A stretch of 10,470 nucleotides of DNA from an uncultured Steroidobacter sp. (lineage in GTDB: Bacteria; Pseudomonadota; Gammaproteobacteria; Steroidobacterales; Steroidobacteraceae), in the NCBI GenBank assembly GCA_946478975.1, contig CAMLEO010000258.1, forward strand, positions 1 through 10,470. The letters are read 5' to 3'. Positions 2,134 through 10,236 of this stretch are shown here, piece by piece. Made by a program: the position numbers and the translations under genes. Under the pieces are notes generated by a model, which was not told the DNA's origin, did no database searches, and worked only from the letters and a program-made list of their open reading frames with translations. Within the stretch, counting starts at the first letter, position 1, and each line of letters begins with the position of its first letter.

Positions 2134-3060
2134 ATGTCGTTGCAATCACTCGACGTTGTACGGCGCTCCGCGACCACCACCCAGCCACCGAACGTGCGGC
2201 AGCCATCGTCGGGCGGCCAGGTCGCAAAGCTCATCGACACGACCAAATGCATCGGCTGCAAGGCGTGCCAGGTTGCGTGCATGGAATGGAACGACCTGCG
2301 CGATGAAGTCGGGACCAACGTCGGCGCGTATCAGAATCCGCACGATCTCACCGACCAATCGTGGACGCTGATGCGCTTCACCGAATATGAGAATCCCGCC
2401 AAAGGCGGCGATCTGGAATGGCTGATTCGCAAGGACGGCTGCATGCATTGCGCCGATCCCGGCTGTCTCAAAGCCTGCCCTGCTCCGGGCGCCATCGTGC
2501 AGTACGCGAATGGCATCGTCGATTTCCAGGAAGAAAACTGCATCGGCTGCGGCTATTGCATCGCCGGCTGCCCGTTCAACGTCCCGCGCATCTCCAAGCG
2601 AGACAGCAAAGCATACAAATGCACGTTGTGCTCGGATCGCGTGTCGGTGGGGCTCGAACCGGCCTGCATCAAGTCGTGCCCGACGGGCGCATTGGTGTGG
2701 GGAACGAAAGAGGACATGCAGCAGCACGCCGCCGAACGTATCGAAGATTTGAAATCGCGCGGCTTCGACAACGCCGGGCTGTACGATCCGGCAGGCGTTG
2801 GCGGCACACATGTGATGTATGTGCTTCATCACGCCGACCAGCCGGACTTGTACAGCGGCTTGCCGGTCGATCCGCAGATCAGCCCGATGGTGGGATTGTG
2901 GAAAGGCGTGACCAAGCCGCTCGCGCTCGCTGGCATCGCGCTGACGGCGCTGGCGGGGTTCTTCCATTTCATCCGTGTCGGCCGCAACGAAACTCACGAC
3001 GAAGATGAGCTGGCCGCGGCCCAGGAGATCGCCAAGAAGGGCGAGGAGCGTGCGCCATGA
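2134..3060 (+). CDS. fdnH: Formate dehydrogenase-N/O, beta (iron-sulfur) subunit
   Basis: This 308-residue electron-transfer subunit carries electrons from the alpha subunit to the membrane cytochrome b. All sixteen cysteines expected for four [4Fe-4S] clusters are present: C39/C42/C45/C49 ([11 protein letters not shown]), C103/C106/C111/C115 ([13 protein letters not shown]), C136/C139/C142/C146 ([11 protein letters not shown]) and C163/C166/C178/C182 (CTLC and ACIKSC). A single hydrophobic helix at about residues 262-283 (core [15 protein letters not shown]) matches the C-terminal membrane anchor of E. coli FdnH/FdoH, and a charged tail follows. Length is close to the E. coli proteins (about 294-300 residues). 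The ATG at 2134 has a strong ribosome binding site. The stop overlaps the gamma-subunit start (ATGA at 3057-3060), which indicates translational coupling. The symbol fdoH or fdxH would serve equally; sequence alone does not separate the N and O isoenzymes. Confidence 0.96.
3043..3048 (+). promoter_or_regulatory. Ribosome binding site of fdnI
   Basis: GAGGAG sits 8 nt upstream of the ATG at 3057, inside the last codons of fdnH. It supports the start that gives the 4-bp ATGA overlap. Confidence 0.7.
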
Positions 3061-3722
3061 ACGACACCACCAGCGACCCGCGCCTGCACATCATCGAGCG
3101 CTACACCGCGAACGAGCGCACGAATCATTGGATCGTCGCGATCACGTTCGTGCTGACCGCGCTGTCGGGATTGTCGATGTTTCATCCCGCGCTGTTCTGG
3201 TTGAGCTCACTGTTCGGCGGCGGCACCTGGACTCGCATCCTGCACCCGTTCCTGGGATTGGTGATGGTCTTCGCATTCGCGGTGCTCGCCGCGACGATGT
3301 GGCGGTTCAACAAAATGCAGCCGCGCGATTGGCAATGGCTGCGCCAGTCGCGGGACGTGGTGAACAATCGCGAAGAGCGCCTCCCAGATGTCGGCCGTTA
3401 CAATGCCGGCCAGAAGCTGATGTTTGCTGTGCTCGTGGTCTGCGCCGTCGTCATGCTGCTGACGGGCATCGTCATCTGGCGCGAGTTCTTTTCGGTGTAT
3501 TTCTCGACTGGCGTCGTTCGCTTCGGCGCCCTCTTGCATGCGCTGTTCGCGTTCCTGTTGATCTGCGCCATCATCATCCACATCTACGCCGCGTTCTGGG
3601 TGAGAGGATCGGTTCGTGCCATGACTCGCGGCACCGTCACGCCCGGCTGGGCTTGGAAACATCATCGCACCTGGTTCCGGGACAAAATCCATGCAACGCA
3701 TCCTCGAACCCGGCCAGATTGA
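3057..3722 (+). CDS. fdnI: Formate dehydrogenase-N/O, gamma subunit (cytochrome b556)
   Basis: This 221-residue integral membrane cytochrome anchors the complex and passes electrons to the quinone pool. Four hydrophobic segments are visible, at about residues 25-48, 64-82, 120-141 and 157-181. The four haem-ligand histidines of E. coli FdnI (H18, H57, H155, H169) correspond to H24 (ERTNHW), H63 (RILHPFLG), H161 and H175 here, each offset by exactly 6 residues, so both haem b sites appear intact. The C-terminal region with [22 protein letters not shown] matches the family's cytoplasmic tail. The start overlaps the fdnH stop (ATGA). The 3' end overlaps the fdhE start by 32 bp in another frame. 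Length matches E. coli FdnI (217 residues). Confidence 0.95.
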
Positions 3723-4623
3723 GTCGTTCGCGCAAGGGGGCATTCCCCGGCTGCGACTGCCCGAGAGGGAGCGCGTTTTCTCGGCACGCGCCGCCCGCCT
3801 TCGACAACAGAGCGAGCCCGACGCGATCGGCCACGCGATTGGCGATTACCTGCGATTGATGGCGCATATTGCCGATGCTCAGCAAGCGGCACTAACAAAC
3901 ATCGACGCGAAGCTACCCTCGGCCGAGCAGATCGCCAGTGCTCGCGAGTTCCGCATGCCAGTCATCGCCGCAAACGGATGGCCGCGCGAAGAGCTTTGGC
4001 GCCAGGCATTGATGTCACTTTGCGATTCCGTCGCCGCTCGTCCAGACACTGTCGACGCAGCGCGTGCCGTATGCGATCGATTACGCACGCTCGAACCGGA
4101 ACAACTGGAGTTGCAGGCTGACGCGTTGTTGGCGGCGGAGACGGACGCCGTCGACTTTGCCTCGGCGCCTTTCATCATGGCCGCGTTGCAAGTGTATTGG
4201 CTCGACCTCGCCAGTCGCCTGCCCATCGATGATGTGCACGAGCTCGATGTGCCCGGCGTGTGCCCGATCTGCGGCACGCTCCCCGTCGCAAGCATCGTGC
4301 GCGCCGATCCGAAATCGCAAGGATTCCGGTATCTCCACTGCGCACTGTGCGCCACCGAATGGCACATGGTCCGCGTGAAATGCAGCCACTGCTACACGAC
4401 GCAGGGCATCACCTATCAATCCATCGAAGACGGGCCGCCCGGCATTCGCGCCGAGTGCTGCGACACCTGCCATACCTACCGCAAGATTCTGTATCAAGAA
4501 CAAGACGGCAATATCGAGCCGGTGGCCGACGACCTCGCCAGCCTGCCGCTCGATCTGCTGCTGAGCGAAGCCGGCTATCGCCGTGCCAGCGCCAATCCGT
4601 TTCTGTTGAGCGCCGCGACGTGA
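3691..4623 (+). CDS. fdhE: FdhE, formate dehydrogenase accessory protein
   Basis: FdhE is a cytoplasmic rubredoxin-like iron protein needed to obtain active respiratory formate dehydrogenase; it acts on the enzyme's catalytic subunit rather than being part of the complex. The product has 310 residues (E. coli 309). The cysteine pairs are C191/C194 (CPICGTLP), C217/C220 ([16 protein letters not shown]), C231/C234 (CSHC) and C257/C260 (CDTC), with an extra C256. The helical N-terminal half contains [15 protein letters not shown], and the end contains [19 protein letters not shown] and NPFLL, all family hallmarks. The ATG at 3691 lies 32 bp inside fdnI; its upstream ribosome binding site is weak (GGGAC), so expression probably depends on fdnI translation. 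No internal damage is seen. Confidence 0.95.
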
Positions 4624-4681
4624 TTGCCTTGAGGGGCCGCGGGCGCTCAGAATCCACCCGTTGGTTGCAACGGGACGCGCT

Positions 4682-6109
4682 GTGGCAGCACCACTCGCTG
4701 AGATGTCGCGTGCGAGCGCGGCAGACATACCTTCCCTCGATCGCCTGCTGAATCGGCCGGCGCTGGCAGCGCTGTTGGCGCGACACGGGCGCACGCAAGT
4801 CACGACGATCCTGCGCACACATTTACAAGACCTGCGCACTCGGGCCGTGGCAGGGAGTTTGGAGCCGATCGCGTTGAGCGACGAGGCCATCGCGGCGAGC
4901 GTCGAAACGAAGTTGGCCGATATTTCACAGCCGCACCTGCGCCCGGTATTCAACCTGACCGGGACCGTGCTCCACACGAATCTCGGTCGTGCCTTGTTAC
5001 CCGACGCTGCCGTGAGAGCCATTGCACAGGCGCTGACCGCTCCGGTGAATCTGGAGTTCGATCTCGAATCGGGCAAGCGCGGCGACCGCGACGATGTGGT
5101 CGAAGAAATATTGCGCGAGCTGACGGGAGCTGAAGCAGCCACTGTCGTAAATAACAATGCCGCCGCGGTGCTGTTGTTGCTGAGCGCCCTCGCCGGCCGA
5201 CGTGAAGTCGTGATTTCACGCGGTGAGCTGATCGAAATCGGCGGCGCGTTCCGGATGCCCGACATCATGCGCCAGGCCGGCGCCAAACTCATCGAGGTGG
5301 GCACGACCAATCGAACGCACCTAGCCGACTATGCACAAGCCATCGGTCCGCGCACGGCGTTGCTCATGAAAGTGCACACGAGCAACTACGCCATCACCGG
5401 CTTTACGGCGAATGTTTCTACCGAGGATCTTTCCGCTCTCGCTCGCGAACATTCGATTCCAGTCGTGGTGGATCTCGGCAGTGGATCGCTGGTCGACCTC
5501 ACACAGTGGCAGCTGCCCAAAGAACCTACGGTTCGCGAGACGATCGCGGCGGGCGCCGATCTCGTCACCTTTAGCGGCGACAAATTACTCGGTGGCCCAC
5601 AGGCTGGCATCCTCGCCGGCCGTGCGGATCTGATCGCGACGCTCAAGAAACATCCGCTCAAGCGCGCCCTGCGAGTCGGCAAGCTGACGATCGCCGCGCT
5701 CGAAACAGTCTTATCGTTGTACCGGTCGCCCGAGTTCTTGACGGAACGCCTGACGACGTTGCGCCTGCTCACTCGACGCGCCGAAGCCATGCAGGCGCAA
5801 GCGATGCGCTTGCAGCCGATCGTTCAACGCGCCGTAGGCGAAGCCTATGAAGTCGCGGCGGCAGCGATGTCCAGCCAGATCGGCAGCGGCGCGCTGCCCG
5901 TCGATCAACTGCCAAGTTACGGGCTCGCGACCCGAGCAATCAAAGGCAAGCACGGCAGCCTGGACCGGTTGGAAGCAGCGTTGCGCGCGCTGCCTCGGCC
6001 CGTCATCGGGCGCATTGCCGACAAAACATTGTGGCTCGACCTGCGCTGTCTCGAACCATCCGATGAGGCTCCGTTCGTCGATCAGCTGCAGGCGTTGAGA
6101 CCGTCATGA
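4682..6109 (+). CDS. selA: L-seryl-tRNA(Sec) selenium transferase SelA
   Basis: SelA is the pyridoxal-phosphate enzyme that converts Ser-tRNA-Sec to Sec-tRNA-Sec using selenophosphate from SelD. In E. coli it is a homodecamer. Family blocks seen are PSLDRLL at the N-terminus, [93 protein letters not shown] with the PLP lysine codon at 5582-5584, LPVDQLPS and [19 protein letters not shown]. The start is uncertain. GTG at 4682 has a GGGA 6 nt upstream (475 residues). ATG at 4703 has no clear ribosome binding site but gives 468 residues and puts the PLP lysine at position 294, against K295 in E. coli. TTG at 4661 is least likely. The stop overlaps the selB start (ATGA). Confidence 0.95.
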
Positions 6110-8076
6110 TCGTCGGCACCGCCGGGCACATCGACCATGGCAAGACGACGCTGGTGCGCGCATTGACCGGCGTCGACACGGATCGGCTGAAAGAAGAAAA
6201 AGAACGCGGCATCTCGATCGAACTCGGTTACGCCTACACGCAATTGACCAACGGCGAAGCGCTGGGTTTCGTCGATGTGCCCGGCCACGAGCGGCTGGTT
6301 CACACGATGGTGGCCGGTGCATGCGGTATCGACTTCGCGCTGCTGGTCGTCGCCGCTGATGACGGCGTGATGCCGCAGACTCGCGAGCACCTCGCGATCC
6401 TGGAACTGCTCGGCATCTCACGAAGCGCCGTCGCGCTCACGAAGATTGACCGCGTGGATCGCGAGCGCCTCGGCGAGGTCGAGCGGGAAATCAAACAACT
6501 GCTGGCACCCACTCCATTGCGAGACGCACCGTTATTCTTGATCAACGCCACGATGGCTAACGATCCGGGCACAGCCGCACTTCGCCAGCATCTGCACGAG
6601 ACCGCCGTGCAAACGTCAAAGCGTCACGACGACGGTCTTTTCCGATTGGCCGTGGATCGCGTCTTCACGCTCCCAGGTCACGGCACCATCGTCGCCGGCA
6701 CAGTGTTCTCCGGACGAATTCACGTCGGCGACACCGTGCTGGCAATGCCTCGCAATCTTTTCGTGCGGGTACGCAGTATCCATGCACAGAACCGCGCCAA
6801 CGAACTCGGCTGCGCCGGGCAACGCTGCGCCCTCAATCTCGCCGGCGTAGAGAAATGCGCGATCTCGCGCGGTGACTGGCTCGGCGATCCGCGAGCATTG
6901 GTTTCGACTCGGCGCGTAGATGTGCGATTGTCTTTGTTAGAACGCAGCGGCCTGCGACTTGCCACGTGGTCGCCGGTTCACGTGCATATCGGCACGGCGC
7001 ATTGCCCGGCTCACCTGGTGTTGCTCGAGTCGGAGCATCTTGCGGCCGGGGAATCGGCCCGCGTGCAGCTCGTGTTCGACACAGCGACGTGTGCGCTTCC
7101 CGGCGATCGTTTCATCGTTCGCGACGCGCAGGCTGCACATACGATTGGCGGCGGCGTGGTCCTGGATTCGTCGGCTCCCTCGCGCAGGCGGCGCTCGCAA
7201 GAGCGGCTGCGTTATCTCGACGCCCTTGAACGCATGCTTGCGGGCGAAGGACTGCATCCGCTGTTGGCTCATGCGCCGCATGGCGTGAGCATGACGGACA
7301 TCGAACGTCTCACCGGTCGTGCCGCCACGCACGTTACTATTCCGCCCAACACCGTTGTGAGAGGCACGAGCCACGAACAGTTCGCGATTCGCACCTCAAC
7401 GTGGAATTCGCTGCGTGAACAAACATTGAGCGCGCTCCGGGAGTTTCATGCCGAATTTACCGATGACCCCGGCCCGGATTCCGGTCGGCTGCGGCGCATG
7501 GCGCTGCCCGAACTGCCCGAGCCGCTGTGGCAAGCACTGGTGGACGAGCTCACCCAGGAACGTTTGCTGGTTCGCAATGGCCCGTGGCTGCAGCTGCCCG
7601 GCCACGTGAGCACACTTTCCGAAACCGATCAGGATCTCGCACAGCAGTTGCAATCACTCATCCAGCGCGGTCATCCTGAGCCGCCTTGGGTGCGGGAGCT
7701 GGCAGCAGCGGTTCAGCAGCCCGAGGAGCGCGTGCGACAGGTGCTGCGGAAGCAAGTTGCACGAGGCGCCGTCTGCCAGATCGTGCATGATTTGTTTTAC
7801 GACAGCGATCGGGTCGGCACGCTCGCGGATATCATCGCCGCGCTGGCGCGAGAACACGGCGGCGTGAACGCAGCTCGTTATCGCGATGCCATCGGGCTCG
7901 GTCGTAAGCGGACGATTCAGATCCTGGAATATTTCGACCGCGTCGGTTACACCCGGCGCGTTCACGATACGCATGTGTTACGCAAGCACAGCGGCTGGAT
8001 GACAGGGAAGGTACACGCACCCGGCGGTGCGGCTGGGCTTCAAACCCAGCAGGGGGCGTCAGACGCTTCCGGGTAG
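6106..8076 (+). CDS. selB: Selenocysteine-specific elongation factor SelB, 3' end overlapping selC
   Basis: SelB is the GTPase that replaces EF-Tu for selenocysteine: it binds Sec-tRNA-Sec and, through C-terminal winged-helix domains, the SECIS hairpin of selenoprotein mRNAs. The G domain is complete: G1 GHIDHGKTT (residues 7-15), switch I region [15 protein letters not shown] (30-44), G3 DVPGH (57-61) and G4 TKID (112-115). EF-Tu-like beta-barrel domains follow ([32 protein letters not shown]). The winged helices end with [23 protein letters not shown]. At 656 residues it exceeds E. coli SelB (614). The family fold appears to end near residue 627; the remainder includes 23 residues (634-656) whose codons are the tRNA-Sec gene, and the TAG at 8074-8076 lies in the tRNA T stem. 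The native C-terminus is therefore doubtful. The start forms an ATGA overlap with selA; its ribosome binding site is weak. Confidence 0.95.
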
Positions 8077-8101
8077 GTTCGACTCCTGCTGCCTTCCGCC
8101 A
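8006..8101 (+). tRNA. selC: Selenocysteine tRNA (anticodon UCA)
   Basis: This 96-nt gene folds into the bacterial tRNA-Sec form. The acceptor stem has 8 bp (8006-8013 with 8090-8097, one U-G pair). The D stem has 6 bp with a 4-nt loop (8016-8021 with 8026-8031, loop CGGC). The anticodon stem is 8033-8037 with 8045-8049, with an extra flanking G8032-C8050 pair and anticodon TCA at 8040-8042. The long variable arm has 8 bp (8052-8059 with 8063-8070, two G-U pairs). The T stem is 8073-8077 with 8085-8089, with loop TTCGACT. The discriminator is G8098 and the CCA is encoded at 8099-8101. The 8+5 acceptor/T arrangement and 6-bp D stem separate it from tRNA-Ser. Its first 71 nt overlap the selB frame on the same strand, and selD begins 18 nt downstream, so it is probably transcribed within the operon; I see no separate promoter. 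Confidence 0.96.
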
Positions 8102-8105
8102 CTTT

Positions 8106-8113
8106 GAGAGGGA
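8106..8113 (+). promoter_or_regulatory. Ribosome binding site of selD
   Basis: GAGAGGGA lies 6 nt upstream of the ATG at 8120 and only 4 nt after the encoded CCA end of tRNA-Sec. It decides the selD start. If the tRNA 3' end is cut at 8101/8102, selD mRNA would have an 18-nt leader that still keeps this site. Confidence 0.75.
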
Positions 8114-8119
8114 CCATCG

Positions 8120-9178
8120 ATGGCCAGCACCCCGCGACTCACTTCGCTGTCGCACGGCGGCGGCTGCGGTTGCAAGATCGCGCCCGGCGTCCTTGCCACG
8201 TTGATCGAGCGCTCCGCGTCGACCACGCCGTTCGCGCAACTGCTGGTCGGAGCGGAAACCTCGGACGATGCTGCCGTCTATGCTTTGAACGACGAGCAGG
8301 CCGTCATCGCGACCACCGACTTCTTCATGCCCATCATCGACGATCCGTTCGACTTCGGACGCATCGCCGCCACCAATGCATTGAGCGATGTTTATGCGAT
8401 GGGCGGCATGCCGCTGTTTGCACTCGCCATTCTCGGGATGCCCATCAACGTCCTGCCCGTTGCAGTGATTCGTGAAATCCTGCGCGGCGGGGAGTCCATC
8501 TGCACTCAGGCAGGCATTCCGGTCGCCGGCGGCCACAGCATCGATTCGGTCGAGCCGATCTATGGCCTCGCCGCGATCGGCGTCGTTCACCCACGCCATT
8601 TAAAGCGCAATTCGACAGCACGCGCGACCGACGTGTTGGTTCTAGGCAAACCTGTCGGCGTGGGCATTTATTCCGCCGCGCTCAAGAAAGAGCGACTGAG
8701 CGAAGCCGACTATCGCACGATGATCGACACCACCACACGCTTGAATATTCCCGGCGCGCACCTGGCACATCTGCCTGGCGTGCATGCAATGACCGATGTG
8801 ACTGGCTTCGGTGTGCTCGGGCACCTGCTCGAGATGTGCCGCGGCGCTGGATTGAGCGCTCGCGTGAAGATGTCACAAATACCATTGCTGGAAAATGCGT
8901 TCGCGCTCGCGGAAGCCGGTTGTGTGACGGGCGCCTCGGGACGCAACTGGTCATCGTACGGCGCTCACGTGCAACTGGATCCACGAATGGGAAACGTTGC
9001 GCGAGCCCTGCTGTGCGATCCGCAAACCTCCGGCGGCCTGCTGGTAGCTTGCGATGACGCAGCGGTGCCCAGCGTTATTGAAATCTTTCAACGCTTCGGT
9101 TTCGAGCACGCGGGAACCATCGGTCACATGAGCGCATCTACGAATGGCGACTCCGCCACTGTGATGGTCGAGCCATGA
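8120..9178 (+). CDS. selD: Selenide, water dikinase SelD (selenophosphate synthetase)
   Basis: SelD makes monoselenophosphate from selenide and ATP. This is the selenium donor for SelA and, where present, for 2-selenouridine in tRNAs. The product has 352 residues (E. coli 347) and is colinear with it. It has the catalytic loop SHGGGCGCK with C16 and K19 matching E. coli C17 and K20, so this is the cysteine form, not a selenoprotein. Other blocks are DDAAVY, TTDFFMPIIDDPFDFGRIAA, NALSDVYAMGG, AGGHSID, AMTDVTGFGVLGHL and LLCDPQTSGGLL, the ATP/Mg2+ and dimer-fold motifs of the family. The start has a strong ribosome binding site just after the tRNA-Sec CCA end. The stop overlaps the next start (ATGA at 9175-9178). 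Confidence 0.97.
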   Translation: MASTPRLTSLSHGGGCGCKIAPGVLATLIERSASTTPFAQLLVGAETSDDAAVYALNDEQAVIATTDFFMPIIDDPFDFGRIAATNALSDVYAMGGMPLFALAILGMPINVLPVAVIREILRGGESICTQAGIPVAGGHSIDSVEPIYGLAAIGVVHPRHLKRNSTARATDVLVLGKPVGVGIYSAALKKERLSEADYRTMIDTTTRLNIPGAHLAHLPGVHAMTDVTGFGVLGHLLEMCRGAGLSARVKMSQIPLLENAFALAEAGCVTGASGRNWSSYGAHVQLDPRMGNVARALLCDPQTSGGLLVACDDAAVPSVIEIFQRFGFEHAGTIGHMSASTNGDSATVMVEP

Positions 9179-10236
9179 AAACCCACCTCGGTGTCATCGC
9201 CCTTGCGGCGATTGTAGGGACCGCTCTGATGTCGACTCGTGATTCCAAAGGTGCGAACGACGAGCCGCCCGCAACGGGCGAGCAGGCTGCGCGTTCGTTG
9301 CTGCAATCCCTGCCAGCAAACAAACGAGCACAGGCGCAGCTCCCGTTCGAATCCGACGAGCGCACCAATTGGAACTACGTGCCGATGAAACGCACCGGCG
9401 TCACGTTGGGCGACCTGGATGCGAATCAAAAGACATCGGTCGATGCGCTGCTTGGCTCGGCATTGAGCCCGCAGGGCCTGGCGACGGCCAAGGGCATCAT
9501 TCAACACGAGCTGGTACTGCGCGAGATCGAAGGCAACCCGCAGCGTCGCGATCCAGACCTTTATTACACCGTCGTGTTCGGCGAGCCCGGTCCGCGCGTG
9601 CCGTGGGCCTGGCGCTTCGAAGGTCATCATCTTTCGGTGAATGCCACCAATGTCGAAGGTCACGACCAGATTGTTGCTCCGTTGTTCATGGGCTCGAACC
9701 CGGCCCGCATGCAATCGGGACCGAAAGCCGGCCTGCGCCTGCTCGCCGCCGAGGAAGACCTGGCGCGTACGCTGATGCAAATGTTTCCTGGCGAGCGACG
9801 AACTCGCGCCATGCTCTCCGACGATGCGTTCTCCGACATCGTGACACGCAACGATCCCAAAGTGCGCTCGCTCGAAATGGAAGGACTCGCCGCCGGCGAC
9901 ATGACTCAGCCCGAGCAGGCGCAATTGCGAAAGCTATTGCAGGTCTATGTCAATCGGCTGACCGAAGCTGCCGCCCGCGACCAGCTGAATCGCATCGAGC
10001 ACGCCGGCTTCGACAAACTTCATTTCGGCTGGGCCGGCAGCACTGAGCCGGGCAAGCCGCACTACTACCGGCTGCACGGCCCGACAGTCCTGATCGAGTA
10101 CGACAACACCCAAAACAACGCCAATCACATCCACACCGTCTGGCGCGACCTGGAACGTGACTTCGGCGGCGACCTGCTCCGCTCACACTACGAACATCAC
10201 CGTCGCGACGGCACGAAGGAACACGAGCATCCGTGA
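9175..10236 (+). CDS. DUF3500 family protein with N-terminal export signal, function unknown
   Basis: The 353-residue product starts with MKTHLGVIALAAIVGTALM, a short basic start plus a hydrophobic stretch that fits a signal peptide or anchor, although no clear AXA cleavage site is visible. The rest looks soluble. I place it in DUF3500 (PF12006) from memory of its conserved blocks: FEGHHLSVNATNVEG around residues 148-162, MGSNPARMQSGPKAGLRLL, a following EEDLAR, and HTVWRDLERDFGGDLLRSHY at 320-339. Several conserved histidines (H151, H152, H318, H320, H338) could bind a metal, but this is inference. The tail is His-rich (H341, H342, H350, H352). No function is known to me for the family. The start overlaps the selD stop by 4 bp, so translation is probably coupled to selD. 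It contains no internal UGA or other sign of being a selenoprotein. Confidence 0.87.
   Translation: MKTHLGVIALAAIVGTALMSTRDSKGANDEPPATGEQAARSLLQSLPANKRAQAQLPFESDERTNWNYVPMKRTGVTLGDLDANQKTSVDALLGSALSPQGLATAKGIIQHELVLREIEGNPQRRDPDLYYTVVFGEPGPRVPWAWRFEGHHLSVNATNVEGHDQIVAPLFMGSNPARMQSGPKAGLRLLAAEEDLARTLMQMFPGERRTRAMLSDDAFSDIVTRNDPKVRSLEMEGLAAGDMTQPEQAQLRKLLQVYVNRLTEAAARDQLNRIEHAGFDKLHFGWAGSTEPGKPHYYRLHGPTVLIEYDNTQNNANHIHTVWRDLERDFGGDLLRSHYEHHRRDGTKEHEHP

Follow-up and report, generated by a model that had tools for sequence, protein, structure and literature searches.

How can the gene of an elongation factor end inside the gene of the only tRNA that the factor serves, and what follows for the expression of both? 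The question is raised by a 10,470-nucleotide stretch of DNA (hereafter, the window), in which the reading frame of selB, encoding the selenocysteine-specific elongation factor, continues into selC, the gene of tRNA-Sec.

Gene organization of the window

The genes identified in the window lie on the plus strand, in the order fdoG-fdoH-fdoI-fdhE-selA-selB-selC-selD-DUF3500. A formate dehydrogenase set stands 5' of the sel genes. It starts with a partial fdoG (1-2124), assigned to the alpha subunit by the open reading frame list, Pfam, structure alignment and family models, and continues with fdoH (2134-3060), fdoI (3057-3722) and fdhE (3691-4623). An in-frame TAA interrupts fdoG at 46-48, with good homology on either side of it, and the part after it can be aligned with 1kqf_A beginning at residue 332. 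This TAA is distinct from the selenocysteine UGA of fdoG, which presumably lies further upstream, beyond the window. As it is only 45 nt from the window edge, the TAA may be an edge error, or it may be a real nonsense codon.

The putative start of selA (4661-6109; Pfam and TIGR00474, 607.1 bits) follows fdhE, and the selA stop shares 4 nt with the selB start. selB (6106-8076) encodes 656 amino acids, contains the Pfam SelB domains and matches TIGR00475 with 451.8 bits, against a curated cut-off of 242.25. On the other side of selC, selD, encoding selenide water dikinase (8120-9178; NF002098, 543.9 bits), starts 18 nt past the tRNA end, with a Shine-Dalgarno-like GAGAGGG just upstream. Directly 3' of selD, a DUF3500 protein is encoded (9175-10236; Pfam PF12006, E 2e-89), for which no NCBIfam match was obtained.

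selC is the one tRNA gene that ARAGORN finds in the window (8006-8101, anticodon TCA, CCA encoded). Rfam agrees, as model RF01852 matches 8006-8097 above its gathering score (69.2 bits, E 7.8e-13). The cloverleaf is part of the fold predicted for 7970-8119, the energy of which is only mildly better than that of shuffled sequences (z -1.86; 8 of 200 shuffles at least as good). The selB frame has no stop from 6106 up to the TAG at 8074-8076, which corresponds to tRNA nt 69-71. The two genes therefore overlap on the same strand over 71 nt (8006-8076), read in SelB as a C-terminal tail. Since the 5' strand of the T stem (8073-8077, GTAGG) pairs with 8085-8089 (CCTGC), the selB stop is inside this stem. 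A first, sequence-only reading of the locus had described a complete tRNA-Sec, a selB frame open until 71 nt into it, a stop within the T stem and a TGA at 8000-8002 in a shifted frame, and all of these stand.

Where SelB itself ends can also be placed. By both the TIGR00475 model and alignment with E. coli SelB (5lzb), the conserved protein ends at residue 626 (nt 7983), and a linker (7984-8005) leads from there to the first tRNA base. Residues 627-656 are thus an extension, of which residues 634-656 are read from the tRNA. In codon 634 one base precedes the tRNA and is followed by the GG of the tRNA, so the tRNA is read in an N-GG frame. Read in frame 0, the selC of the window would stop at TGA 8105-8107.

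The tRNA-encoded tail in SelB homologs

A search of about 5.8 billion proteins gave 7999 scored candidates, of which the best 120 were listed. Forty-three of these 120 homologs, with identities down to 65%, carry the tRNA-Sec tail in the frame of the window, in a list that leans toward tail-bearing proteins because the query included the tail. Forty of the 43 stop in the T stem and three (P0009, P0011 and P0061) at nt 45-47. Close relatives in which selB stops before selC, which the sequence-only reading had named as evidence against its account, are absent among the top 13 by score (79-89% identical, all tailed) and present immediately below, where the next seven (P0014-P0020; P0014 80% and P0015 78% identical) are tail-free.

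With a query that excludes the tail (P0070 residues 1-625), 15 of the 120 proteins listed were tailed. All 15 were already known, and none of the 64 proteins new to this list had the tail. A third search, aimed at the tail itself (P0003 residues 617-656), returned 39 proteins, nine of them new and all nine tailed. In total, the tail is present in 53 of 194 proteins, the window included and nine coming from the tail-aimed search, and absent from 141. Among the 53, the stop falls in the T stem in 50 and at nt 45-47 in three, the tRNAs of the relatives being deduced from the protein tails, whose ends correspond to nt 71 or 47. The residue read at the first two tRNA bases is W in 30, R in 17 and G in 6, that is, in all 53, since an N-GG codon allows just these. 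Because 43 of the 120 proteins in the first list, drawn from several sources, end in tRNA-Sec in the same frame, the overlap is not an error; protein comparison confirms that the arrangement is real and common to many relatives.

The nearest named species to the SelB of the window belong to Steroidobacteraceae. Four SelB proteins of Steroidobacter and Peristeroidobacter (P0016, P0025, P0031 and P0035) are 73-75% identical to it, and all four are tail-free. The locus is placed in this family by the similarity of its SelB, and transfer of sel genes from one lineage to another is possible. A separate group of SelB proteins of about 659 amino acids (P0083, P0096, P0116 and similar) has an Ala/Pro/Ser-rich C-terminal extension of about 25 residues, in which no match to a translated tRNA-Sec was found.

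Gain and loss of the overlap

On a SelB tree of 198 rows, which excludes the partial P0185 (515 aa), parsimony requires 15 changes of the overlap state, at least 10 of them forced by well-supported branches. Two other trees gave 12 changes (10 forced) and 11 changes (9 forced), all three trees having been built by quick methods without bootstraps. The state is clustered on the tree, as none of 500 shuffles was as low. Parsimony counts changes only, and these may represent one gain followed by many losses, or many gains. In either case, the state has switched at least 10 times between related proteins, which indicates that the overlap is dispensable and favours tolerance over requirement.

selB-selC junctions in other genomes

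At the DNA level, we compared 46 distinct junctions besides the window, each with a tRNA-Sec on the same strand no more than 600 nt downstream of selB; four duplicate loci (L083, L097-L099) and 15 loci lacking such a tRNA-Sec were dropped from the count. At 44 of the 46, selB stops before the tRNA, 0-339 nt ahead. In L081 (3427-3430) the selB TGA is followed immediately by the first base of selC. In L105 (3454-3456) the last base of the selB TAG is the first base of selC; this one-base overlap is an intermediate between separate and overlapping genes. In L014 (4960-5091), from Paramesorhizobium deserti, selB is open through all of selC and stops at TGA 5089-5091, starting 34 nt past the last base of the tRNA, as in the published nested type. 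Overlap is thus rare in this DNA sample of 46 junctions and frequent in the SelB group of the window.

Relatives of the window were also sought in other collections. Among the at least 80 loci from a genome-contig scan, none is titled Steroidobacteraceae, although some titles give only a class or phylum. Genome draws across the class, which overlapped largely in content, and two draws at order level contained no SelB more than 63% identical to the query. With the DUF3500 protein as a marker, none of 369 genomes matched at E 1e-60, and a viral scan gave no relative. In plasmid DNA, the best 20 of 121 matches are limited to the query's selD portion and cover 25-27% of its length.

Some tRNAs in these sets have unusual anticodon loops. 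The loop of selC in L104 is CCTCAAA, which puts C at position 33, where U is near-universal in tRNAs. In L097, the last base of the loop is C instead of A, and the tail of P0006 (GLQPQ) points to an identical substitution in its tRNA.

Reading frame and stop codons within selC

The linker from the SelB core to the tRNA has eight different lengths, spanning 10 to 28 codons when measured from a conserved TRR motif. Parsimony needs 10 changes of its length among overlap-bearing rows, all by whole codons, a constancy partly built into the definition of the group. The proper yardstick is the occurrence of tails in other frames, and motif searches among the 141 proteins without this tail found none in the other two selC frames; a tail in another frame that is cut early, at nt 20 (where 3 of 49 selC genes have a stop in one of these frames), would escape such searches. 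All 141 tail-free proteins have at most 41 residues after TRR.

Of the three selC frames, that of the window offers a stop most often. It holds one in 15 of 49 other distinct selC genes (eight at nt 45, five at nt 69 and two elsewhere), and the other two frames do so in 8 and 6 of 49, counted with the window excluded and with starts set to G1, as ARAGORN gave some genes an extra 5' base. Before this setting, and with the window included, the counts were 6, 9 and 15 of 50. In relatives such as L003 and L100, selB stops earlier, yet selC has an unused TAG at nt 69; hence the stop in the T stem may predate its use by selB.

The constancy of the frame argues that, in this group, an overlap is tolerated only in the frame in which the tRNA brings a stop, or that this frame is favoured. 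Such strict keeping of the frame could mean positive selection instead of tolerance. Tolerance alone leaves the absence of frame 0 here unexplained, because the frame-0 stop, TGA 8105-8107, would also give a short tail.

Proposed consequences for SelB and tRNA-Sec expression

The locus is a conserved partial overlap of the type that Mukai reported. We think it probable that SelB takes its stop from the tRNA, that the overlap is mostly tolerated, and that SelB and tRNA-Sec synthesis compete in time. As selB has no stop of its own before the tRNA, the UAG in the T stem would end translation (at nt 45-47 in three relatives). The tRNA would act as a back-up terminator in this frame, adding about 23 residues, presumably harmless, and for this reason the overlap would be mostly tolerated. 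We expect selC to be made, at least partly, from a transcript shared with selB. On such a transcript, a cut by RNase P at 8005/8006 would leave a selB mRNA without a stop, and ribosomes reaching the UAG would cover, and briefly unfold, the tRNA. Removal of the selB stop had been predicted by the sequence-only reading, and the anatomy of the overlap supports it, provided that both genes are on one transcript and RNase P cleaves it. The further prediction, that one RNA yields either SelB or tRNA and not both, appears too strict. Several SelB molecules could be made per RNA before cleavage and, because several ribosomes can finish SelB before the cut, timing and not strict exclusion would decide the outcome. 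Non-stop mRNAs are rescued by trans-translation, as would be expected for selB mRNA after cleavage. After 3' processing, selD would retain a short leader with its Shine-Dalgarno-like GAGAGGG.

Signals in the DNA bear on whether the transcript is shared. A scan of 7700-8300 found no terminator-like site and no sigma-70-like promoter, although a single consensus was scanned, which is insensitive in GC-rich DNA. Synonymous-site conservation is not raised at the 3' end of selB (0.516 for residues 597-626, versus 0.502 overall, in 21 SelB genes, 20 of which are from relatives without the T-stem overlap).

A selected balance between SelB and its tRNA, as suggested by Mukai in 2021 and by the sequence-only reading, is possible: folding and processing of tRNA-Sec would destroy selB mRNA and so keep SelB proportional to its only tRNA. 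Excess SelB could sequester Sec-tRNA, as argued in PMC8124441. The tight operon lacking a promoter-like site before selC, the frame kept across 10 parsimony changes of linker length, and the fully nested overlap in another lineage (L014, Paramesorhizobium) point the same way. However, the gains and losses on the tree suggest a dispensable trait, and most of the proteins compared (141 of 194) have no tail, so we consider that selection for such a switch is rather unlikely.

It is also doubtful, in our view, that selC has its own promoter within selB, from which most tRNA-Sec would be made separately, leaving the overlap accidental and of no consequence. Some bacterial selC genes are indeed transcribed alone, the overlap state flips readily on the tree, and the low sensitivity of the promoter scan leaves room for such a site. 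Against it stand the empty promoter scan and the unraised conservation of the selB 3' end, the latter measured almost wholly on genes that lack the T-stem overlap.

A more elaborate version, to which we give little credence, would make the T-stem stop a folding-gated terminator, with termination, tRNA folding, RNase P and the selD start all competing on one RNA. SelB, which has this tRNA as its ligand, might even bind to the tRNA part of the mRNA that encodes it. If this were true, the strict frame would reflect selection for a tRNA-buried stop, and the locus would be a variant of the 2021 model in which the stop itself is under structural control. That the tail has a function in SelB is very improbable. 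Its sequence is conserved among the overlap-bearing relatives, but the constraint on the tRNA sequence accounts for this; moreover, P0009, P0011 and P0061 stop at nt 45-47, and the 141 tail-free proteins do without it. The chance that a one-base sequencing or assembly error deleted a stop before selC is practically nil: the out-of-frame TGA at 8000-8002, from which the sequence-only reading drew this alternative, and another odd stop near the window edge (fdoG TAA 46-48) would fit it, but the tailed homologs from several sources exclude it.

Comparison with known selB-selC overlaps

Overlaps of selB and selC were described by Mukai in 2021 (PMC8124441): selC nested in selB in Alphaproteobacteria, a partial overlap with the stop at nt 46-48 in Dyella and Luteibacter, a case in Nitrospirae, and a reverse overlap in Shewanella and Ferrimonas. 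The same paper proposed, for those lineages, that tRNA processing gives a non-stop selB mRNA, and two reviews (PMC9312934, PMC13188914) repeat the proposal. The literature covered, mostly titles and the beginnings of abstracts with few subscription papers, contained no experimental test of the overlap and no report of it in Steroidobacteraceae.

The window shares the basic features of these overlaps, as selB runs into a same-strand selC and the extension translated from the tRNA recurs (53 of 194 proteins). As in the Alphaproteobacterial nested type, selB continues into selC and the tail is translated tRNA, and the same hypothesis, of tRNA processing set against SelB expression, applies. In that type, however, the whole tRNA is read in frame 0, beginning with GGA (Gly), and selB stops downstream of it, often at the following start codon, whereas the window has the N-GG frame and a stop inside the T stem. 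With Dyella and Luteibacter it shares the class Gammaproteobacteria, a selB stop within selC and near relatives that stop before selC; it differs in the position of the stop (nt 69-71), the frame and the family. The stops at nt 45-47 in P0009, P0011 and P0061, deduced from their tails, are also in another frame than those at nt 46-48. Ordinary adjacent selB-selC pairs have the same gene order, but in those pairs a separate selB stop precedes the tRNA by 0-339 nt. Finally, selD would keep a leader after processing here, in contrast to the leaderless downstream ORFs of the published model (PMC8124441).

In summary, the kind of overlap and the idea that RNase P creates a non-stop mRNA have been known since 2021 from other lineages (PMC8124441). 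What is new is a further lineage, another frame and another stop position, together with evidence that the overlap recurs. Overlap between a tRNA gene and that of its own elongation factor also occurs outside the lineages published so far: one gammaproteobacterial SelB group shows it repeatedly, in a single frame as far as seen and with a stop supplied by the tRNA. With natural near-twins at hand, some having the overlap and others not, the regulation model of 2021 can be tested directly.
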